DNA of 33,617 bases from positions 3,198 to 36,814 of the forward strand of contig NZ_JAGDXI010000028.1 of assembly GCF_023256325.1 (NCBI RefSeq), given 5' to 3'. Position numbers and translations under genes: made by a program. The DNA is from Caldisphaera sp. Its GTDB lineage: Archaea > Thermoproteota > Thermoprotei_A > Sulfolobales > Acidilobaceae. Within the stretch, counting starts at the first letter, position 1, and every line of letters begins with the position of its first letter. Under the pieces are notes generated by a model. It saw only the letters and a program-made list of their open reading frames with translations. It searched no databases and was not told the origin of the DNA. Of the stretch, positions 10,401-12,001 are shown piece by piece.

Positions 10401-10793
10401 ATGGGTAAAAAGATGGGTGAAACTATAAATAAAGCGATTATAAAGGTTGTAATTAGGGTAGAGGATCTTTATCTTAAAATTCCATATTCCATAGAAAACG
10501 AATCTATGGAAAACAGTTTAGAAGAGTTATCTTCACTATTACAGTATGATCAGAAAAAAGATTTTATAAGAAGGCCGTATAGTGGGCTTGATTATGAAGC
10601 TAAGCTTCTTTCAGACTTGAGCAAGGCATTAAGAATAAGAATGGAGTTAAATAAAACATTAAATGTATCTGGAATTGAATATTTCAGTAAAAGATTAGAG
10701 GAGTTTTTGGAAAAAGTTAGGTATTCATTAGGCTACAATCCCCATATACCATTGAACTTAAACGAAAGATCAAGGCCAAACATTAAAATATAA
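10401..10793 (+). CDS. Hypothetical protein, 130 residues
   Basis: I do not recognise a family. The product is a charged, soluble, mostly helical-looking protein with no signal peptide, membrane segment or cysteines. The second half (about 70-110) looks like an amphipathic helix pair, and the tail is rich in Asn, Arg and Pro. The frame is open from ATG 10401 (a second ATG at 10413), and a TATA-like GTTTAATGG lies about 25 nt upstream, suggesting a leaderless mRNA. The stop codon overlaps the proposed promoter of the C/D box RNA that follows. Likely a real gene because codon use matches its neighbours and no other feature occupies the space. Confidence 0.7.
   Translation: MGKKMGETINKAIIKVVIRVEDLYLKIPYSIENESMENSLEELSSLLQYDQKKDFIRRPYSGLDYEAKLLSDLSKALRIRMELNKTLNVSGIEYFSKRLEEFLEKVRYSLGYNPHIPLNLNERSRPNIKI
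10785..10792 (+). promoter_or_regulatory. Possible TATA box for the C/D box sRNA
   Basis: An AAATATAA-like stretch at the very end of the upstream gene is about 27-34 nt before the predicted 5' end of the C/D box RNA, the right distance for an archaeal promoter. A second A+T-rich stretch at 10804-10811 is too close to the RNA. Confidence 0.35.
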
Positions 10794-10819
10794 CCTCTTT
10801 CTATTATAAATAATTAATG

Positions 10820-10885
10820 CCGACCAATGAAGTTAATAAGAGGGTCGACTGATATTTGATGATTGTTGGAACTGCTGAGGGTCGG
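10820..10885 (+). ncRNA. C/D box small guide RNA
   Basis: A 66-nt RNA with every part of the archaeal C/D box design: terminal stem CCGACC (10820-10825) with GGTCGG (10880-10885); box C ATGAAGT (10827-10833, two changes from RTGATGA); box D' CTGA (10849-10852); box C' TTGATGA (10856-10862); box D CTGA (10875-10878). The D guide spacer is exactly 12 nt (10863-10874). The D' guide (10837-10847) is complementary to 23S rRNA 759-769 (ten Watson-Crick pairs and one G-U), and the base five nucleotides before D' pairs with C762, equal to E. coli C1920. It should direct 2'-O-methylation there with fibrillarin, Nop5 and L7Ae. I found no target for the D guide in this window. It ends 3 nt before the ATG of the next gene. 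Confidence 0.85.
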
Positions 10886-10888
10886 TAA

Positions 10889-12001
10889 ATGATTAACATA
10901 GGTGTTTTGGGAATAGGAAATGTAGGAAAAAGAGCGGCCTTTTTATTAAAAAGAGAAGGGTTTAATGTAACCCTTTTTGATTATAACGAAGATATCTTGA
11001 AAAATACTGCAAAAGAACTTAACTTAAATTACAAAAAAGTTAATGCATTAAACAAAAATGAAGTTATGTCATCATTGTCGAATATAGATCTTGTAGTAAC
11101 GTCTCTACCAGGTAGCGTCGCACATAAAGCATTAAAAAACTTAGTGGAATCAGGGAAAAACGTTGTTGATGTCTCATTTTTCCCTGAAGACCCTTCTGAT
11201 ATTGGAGAAATTGCTGAAAAAGAAGGATTATCTGTTTTGCTAGATGCTGGTGTTGCACCTGGGTTATCAAACATGTTAATTTCTTATGCAAAAAATGAAA
11301 TAGGAGAAATTAATAGAGGGGTAATCTATGTCGGAGGTATTACTGAAAAACCAGATCCTCCATTAGGAATAATAGCAAGCTGGAATACAATGGATCTAAT
11401 AGATGAATATAGAAGAAAGGCCAGATTTATTTCAAATAGAAAAATTATGGAAATTGATCCGTTAAAGAGTGAGAAAGGAAAAATATATGTAAAAGGAGTA
11501 GGAGAACTTGAATATTTTCCAACTGACGGCTTAAGATCACTATTAAAAACTTTTAATAATTTAGAGTACTTAGTAGAATATACTCTAAGATGGCCAGGCC
11601 ACATTGAATTTATGGAAGGACTTAATAAACTTGGATTTTTAGATCATAAAAAAATTAAAATGAACAACGCAGAAATTTATGCAGATGAATTTTTAAGCTA
11701 TATTATTTCTAATTATAAACCAAATTTAAAAGATATTGTTGTATTAGTGGTAGAAGCGTTTACTCAAAATAAAGGAATAAGGTTCACTCAAATAACTAAA
11801 CCCGAAAATGAGTTTACAGCTATGTCAAGAGTAACTGGGAGCTTTCTATCTTATTCAGCGATAGAATTTATAAAAGGAAAGATAAAGAGAAGTGGATTAA
11901 TATATCCCGAAGAACTCGGAGAAGAAAATATAGGTAAAGAGATTATAGAAATGATGGCTAATGATAGTATGAATATAAACAAAGAGATTATAGTTAAATA
12001 A
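10889..12001 (+). CDS. Saccharopine dehydrogenase-like oxidoreductase
   Basis: A 370-residue NAD(P)-dependent oxidoreductase of the saccharopine dehydrogenase / lysine 6-dehydrogenase superfamily. The Rossmann motif is GVLGIGNVGKRAA at residues 5-17, followed by the acidic end of strand two (LFDYN). The middle has LLDAGVAPGLSNML (about 116-129), characteristic of this family, and WPGHIEFM near 230. Substrate cannot be set from sequence; no other lysine-metabolism gene is adjacent. The ATG lies 3 nt after the closing stem of the C/D box RNA, so the leader either contains that RNA or is trimmed from it. The last 8 nt overlap the convergent helicase gene. Confidence 0.85.
   Translation: MINIGVLGIGNVGKRAAFLLKREGFNVTLFDYNEDILKNTAKELNLNYKKVNALNKNEVMSSLSNIDLVVTSLPGSVAHKALKNLVESGKNVVDVSFFPEDPSDIGEIAEKEGLSVLLDAGVAPGLSNMLISYAKNEIGEINRGVIYVGGITEKPDPPLGIIASWNTMDLIDEYRRKARFISNRKIMEIDPLKSEKGKIYVKGVGELEYFPTDGLRSLLKTFNNLEYLVEYTLRWPGHIEFMEGLNKLGFLDHKKIKMNNAEIYADEFLSYIISNYKPNLKDIVVLVVEAFTQNKGIRFTQITKPENEFTAMSRVTGSFLSYSAIEFIKGKIKRSGLIYPEELGEENIGKEIIEMMANDSMNINKEIIVK

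Follow-up and report, generated by a model that had tools for sequence, protein, structure and literature searches.

A stretch resembling a C/D box guide RNA ends almost at the start codon of a dehydrogenase gene in a Caldisphaera genome, which raises the question of whether it is a genuine guide, what it would modify, and how it is tied to the gene that follows. The locus lies in a window of 33,617 nucleotides (contig NZ_JAGDXI010000028.1), by which we mean the whole stretch of DNA that was analysed; positions refer to this window, and the RNA with its parts, the TATA-like elements, the rRNA targets and the dehydrogenase gene lie on the forward strand (+). The first-pass annotation had placed a C/D box guide RNA at 10820–10885, and orthologues together with co-variation between guides and rRNA bear this out. 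Judged by sequence comparison, the stretch is a C/D box guide RNA, very probably directing methylation of the ribosome.

The guide RNA and its boxes

The whole sRNA, from terminal stem to terminal stem (10820–10885), was delimited by its boxes, its similarity to Rfam models and comparison with relatives. In the window sequence, the boxes C, D′, C′ and D are all present in the expected order, enclosed by a terminal stem of 6 bp, whose strands CCGACC (10820–10825) and GGTCGG (10880–10885) pair with each other and covary in relatives. Box C, AUGAAGU (10827–10833), agrees with RUGAUGA at 5 of 7 positions, and relatives carry RUGAUGA or RUGNNGA at the equivalent position. Box C′, UUGAUGA (10856–10862), likewise recognised from the sequence and from relatives, agrees at 6 of 7; RUGAUGA itself occurs in many orthologues outside f1, the genome family to which the loci linked to the dehydrogenase belong. 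Boxes D′ (10849–10852) and D (10875–10878) both read CUGA, as expected of an archaeal C/D box sRNA, and D′ is mostly YGA in relatives. The D guide spacer is 12 nt long and the spacer from box C to D′ 15 nt, against the usual ~12 nt. The tandem G·A pairs of a k-turn are possible (G10829·A10878 and A10830·G10877), with an extra G10879 separating box D from the stem.

The best Rfam match to the window RNA was sR20 (33.5 bits, E 0.0014; gathering score 44). Among 4227 Rfam models, none matched the element itself at gathering score, either in the window or in the two sets of relative loci scanned (14 and 10). When the window was scanned with a strict C/D pattern, no other C/D RNA came up, and the one at 10820–10885 was missed too, because its box C is degenerate. 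L7Ae-family, Nop and fibrillarin genes are encoded in the genome of the window. Taken from the window alone, the Rfam match below gathering score and the pairing of the D′ guide provide moderate evidence for a C/D RNA, which becomes strong once the relatives are added.

Predicted targets in 23S rRNA

According to PMC7994747, the nucleotide targeted by a C/D RNA is set by the N+5 rule, counted from box D or D′, and both guides are complementary to rRNA in the register that puts the target at N+5. The D′ guide, UAAGAGGGUCG (10837–10847), is predicted to pair with UGACCCUCUUA in helix 69 of 23S rRNA (759–769), with G10844 opposite the equivalent of Escherichia coli C1920 (window 762). The D guide, GUUGGAAC (10865–10872), would pair with GUUCCGGC (1070–1077), with A10870 opposite U1956 (window 1072). 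Both targets belong to domain IV, and their numbering was checked on E. coli rrlB. Helices 68–71 of 23S rRNA are described in PMC4644070 as a predicted hotspot of 2′-O-methylation, and both predicted targets fall inside it.

Within the window alone, the D′ pairing amounts to 10 Watson–Crick pairs, and the D pairing is not significant. In 23S rRNA the D′ guide pairs with GACYCUCUU; the partner of the D guide, GUUCCGRC, is 36 nt away from it in the rRNA of G003. Shuffled guides of this genome reached the score in 5/400 cases for D′, in 92/400 for D, and in 0/400 for both within 60 nt. The D′ duplex with the genome's own 23S rRNA was found in all 23 genomes having both sequences, where 205 of 207 duplex cells are paired (194 Watson–Crick, 11 G–U, 2 mismatches); for the D duplex in the same genomes, 172 of 184 cells are paired (164 Watson–Crick, 8 G–U, 12 mismatches). 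At position 1921 the rRNA–guide combination is C–G in 11 genomes, U–G in 7 and U–A in 5, and C never faces A. Position 1960 has G–C in 16, A–U in 5, G–U in one (the window genome) and G facing A in one (G028). Both positions are cases of co-variation between two separate RNAs, carried by few independent changes among related genomes. The 23S pattern scans covered 147 genomes, and matches outside rRNA were dropped (G017, G023, G056, G124, and one each in G022 and G049).

The 23S gene of the window seems to carry two introns, at approximately 771–1000 and 1028–1068, which directly adjoin the two target sites, one following CUCUUAA and the other preceding AGUUCC; their bounds were set by eye against the gene of G003.

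Orthologues across the order

A model, R1, was built from 15 related RNAs lying 5′ of f1 dehydrogenase orthologues and run on 147 genomes of the order, of which 118 matched with E ≤ 1, a count that includes weaker, unchecked matches. Twelve of the 30 best R1 places adjoin the dehydrogenase, all of them in f1, and the other orthologues read have mostly canonical boxes and occur in other families and settings, away from the dehydrogenase. Orthologous RNAs are present in Desulfurococcales-type archaea (Ignisphaera, Staphylothermus, Pyrodictium, Aeropyrum and Acidilobaceae), and across the order the guide gene is found in the dehydrogenase leader, after a tRNA or in intergenic DNA. Some f3 genomes have the guide RNA closely 3′ of a tRNA (L073 and L082 by sequence, L084 by cmscan), which suggests joint tRNA–sRNA transcripts. 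In G016, an sR1 C/D RNA stands just 5′ of the orthologue (L024, 2767–2821, minus strand; 48.8 bits, gathering score 45).

Besides the 24 copies linked to the dehydrogenase, 41 orthologues were read, 33 outside f1 and 8 unlinked members of f1; the RNA of G019 is a model match and not one of these. Box D is CYGA in 33/33 orthologues outside f1, of which a script read 31 and inspection by eye the other two; the same holds for 4/8 unlinked f1 members and 2/24 linked members, the window RNA being one of the latter two. In the remaining 22 linked members box D is eroded. The rows that the script left unparsed (L146, L054, L139, L067 and L074) were read by eye. With box D eroded, some linked relatives may no longer function as normal terminal C/D motifs. 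Their outer stem is often long, with two-sided changes in 10/10 pairs, and 72% of the stem cells are paired, versus 52% in shuffles.

The element was at first read as a riboswitch-like leader, that is, a cis-regulatory element of the dehydrogenase that merely resembles a C/D RNA. Such a leader would account for an element conserved before the dehydrogenase in divergent relatives, for its long covarying stem and for the loss of a good box D from most of the linked copies. However, a cis element is bound to the gene it controls, and the guide RNA is not: orthologues with canonical boxes lie away from the dehydrogenase, also in genomes that do not have that gene. These orthologues and the co-variation with rRNA overturned the reading, and we now consider it very improbable. 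That AT-rich intergenic DNA should resemble C/D boxes by chance would fit the sub-threshold Rfam score, but this reading is contradicted by the comparative data, namely the orthologues, the co-variation and the absence of any joint success in the shuffles, and its probability is close to nil.

The dehydrogenase gene and its linkage to the RNA

Downstream of the RNA lies a saccharopine/L-lysine-dehydrogenase-like gene of 370 aa (10889–12001), with the Pfam domains Sacchrp_dh_C and Sacchrp_dh_NADP. Its closest PDB match is 3abi, PH1688 (E 1.2e-54), which we take to be an L-lysine dehydrogenase. The ATG at 10889 is the correct start, because the NAD-binding motif begins at residue 3, and only a TAA (10886–10888) separates it from the terminal stem. 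The annotation had the stem ending 3 nt before this ATG and the guide RNA within the leader region of the gene; both statements hold, and no space is left between RNA and ATG for the distinct promoter at 10886–10889 that it had named as counter-evidence. The last 8 bp of the dehydrogenase gene (11994–12001) also belong to a convergent gene for a Hel308-like helicase.

Linkage was counted in 40 f1 genomes, with E < 1e-3 for the RNA and E < 1e-20 for the gene. The RNA stands just 5′ of the dehydrogenase in 24 of the 40, and thus in 24 of the 30 having both; RNA and gene are on different contigs in six (G006, G007, G015, G019, G161 and G162). One further genome has the gene only (G023), two have the RNA only (G008 and G135) and seven have neither, some of these being incomplete. 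The position of the Shine–Dalgarno (SD) sequence, the flanking genes and the TATA elements were each parsed in 17 of the 24 linked loci, and the other 7 were left uncounted. The gene before the RNA is common to 6 of the 17 (in Caldisphaera-like and Acidilobus-like genera) and otherwise shared only within genera; a convergent helicase behind the dehydrogenase is common to 13 of the 17. The RNA therefore keeps its dehydrogenase neighbour, whereas the gene before it varies. The window carries at 10401–10793 a 130-aa ORF with no Pfam or NCBIfam match, which is conserved 5′ of the RNA in 6 of the 17 parsed loci. No earlier description of the RNA–dehydrogenase linkage was found in the literature searched, which was covered in part and without supplements.

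Promoters and leader

The distance from the TATA box to the transcription start is usually ~26 nt. An AT-rich TATA-like sequence, TTAAAATATAA (10783–10793), a weak candidate identified by sequence, is spaced for a putative start near the 5′ end of the RNA, and a second, ATTATAAA (10803–10810; score 5.4), for a predicted start inside the RNA, near 10833. These scores are weak, given that the region has only 32% GC. Candidates lie solely before the RNA, in keeping with the earlier claim that the nearest plausible TATA box precedes the RNA and not the gene. The genome G001 has a TATA-like TATATAAG ~31 nt 5′ of box C, and in G000, G003, G001, G013 and G165 the short gap 3′ of the RNA leaves no room for a separate promoter. 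Two of the 17 parsed loci out of 24, those of G022 and G079, have a good TATA, TTTAAATA, between RNA and dehydrogenase; the promoter layout across the linked genomes is thus not uniform, and a shared promoter is argued against in those two. The guide RNA and the dehydrogenase mRNA are likely to come from one shared precursor. It is plausible that guide output is coupled to the dehydrogenase through this transcript, and such a coupling would agree with the conserved adjacency. A C/D sRNA overlapping the 5′ end of a gene has been reported to lower downstream expression in a reporter (PMC7994747).

It is also conceivable that a real guide RNA and the gene are passive neighbours with separate transcription starts, that of the mRNA being placed within the RNA by the element at 10803–10810, and that their adjacency is kept by the short interval alone. 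The spacing of ATTATAAA, the TTTAAATA between RNA and gene in G022 and G079, and the six of 30 genomes with both parts on different contigs are in line with this, and a short shared interval holding the promoter explains the linkage without a regulatory role. The five genomes whose gap has no room for a promoter, and the TATA-like element before box C in G001, speak against separate starts, which we consider rather unlikely. A different kind of link is raised by an SD-like GAGG (10877–10880; 16S end GGATCACCTCC), which stands 8 nt 5′ of the ATG and overlaps both box D and the stem, and by a GAGGT at the equivalent place in G003, overlapping box D and the stem likewise. In l7ae leaders, the binding of L7Ae hides the SD in a k-turn helix (PMC6298567, PMC5539422), and the present layout matches the leaders described in PMC6298567. 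By this analogy, the RNA would have a dual function: L7Ae on the terminal k-turn would close the stem, hide the GAGG and lower the dehydrogenase, so that the gene would sense free L7Ae. However, GAGGT(G) lies 3′ of the RNA and beyond the stem in G017, G018, G005 and G159, among several other f1 genera, box D, on which a terminal k-turn depends, is eroded in 22 of the 24 linked members, and the leader stem is predicted to fold free of protein (−17.7 kcal/mol, z −2.0). Such a switch is, in our judgement, improbable. The same low expectation applies to an f1 RNA with two jobs, serving as a methylation guide near the subunit interface and as an L7Ae-sensitive leader that sets the dehydrogenase level, with the erosion of box D as the trace of that tuning.

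Discussion

The comparative data establish the orthology of the RNA, both guides, the guide–rRNA co-variation and the conserved adjacency. From these sequences, we consider it probable that the locus is a functional C/D sRNA gene guiding methylation of C1920 and U1956, which in f1 shares the promoter and precursor of the dehydrogenase. The D′ guide would direct fibrillarin to 2′-O-methylate C1920 of 23S rRNA, and the D guide would direct it to U1956. In f1, the guide gene would have settled just 5′ of the dehydrogenase gene and shared its promoter. The common precursor, with its 5′ end at the start of the RNA or further upstream, would in some copies be processed down to the sRNP and so yield the guide; in other copies it would act as the mRNA of the dehydrogenase, the RNA forming its leader. 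Several points count against this explanation: the match of 5/7 in box C, the 15-nt D′ spacer, the extra G10879, Rfam scores below gathering, the erosion of box D in 22/24 linked copies and the D-guide mismatches (12/184).

The analysis yields two predicted methylation sites that are well supported, with guide–target co-variation over an order. Moreover, the same guide gene in a leader, after a tRNA and between genes makes a natural series on promoter borrowing versus effect on the host gene. The reason why C/D genes occupy such changing transcription units remains to be understood, according to PMC7994747.

A guide RNA at the head of a gene is an arrangement already known in archaea, of which the RNA–dehydrogenase pair is a further case. 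Tripp et al. 2017, as cited in PMC7994747, found that 7% of archaeal C/D sRNAs overlap the 5′ end of a gene and that others lie within 25 nt of one. The sRNAs beside or overlapping ORFs in that account share with ours the position next to an ORF. They have no promoter of their own and are processed from a longer transcript, a likeness that probably extends to the present locus, and promoter sharing, known for archaeal C/D genes from the same account, fits the f1 linkage. In contrast to the cases given in PMC7994747, a single RNA–gene pair is kept here across f1, with dehydrogenase identity down to about 26–28%, and most of the linked RNAs have an eroded box D. The Rfam families sR20 (RF01140) and sR3 (RF01133) have the same C/D layout and are the best matches, canonical orthologues included, but every match is below gathering score. 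The k-turn switch in the l7ae 5′UTR (PMC5539422, PMC6298567) resembles the leader in setting a k-turn beside the SD, with L7Ae as a possible effector here; it differs in controlling l7ae itself, and the accounts of the switch in those two papers describe no guide role for it, whereas the RNA before the dehydrogenase very probably acts as a guide.
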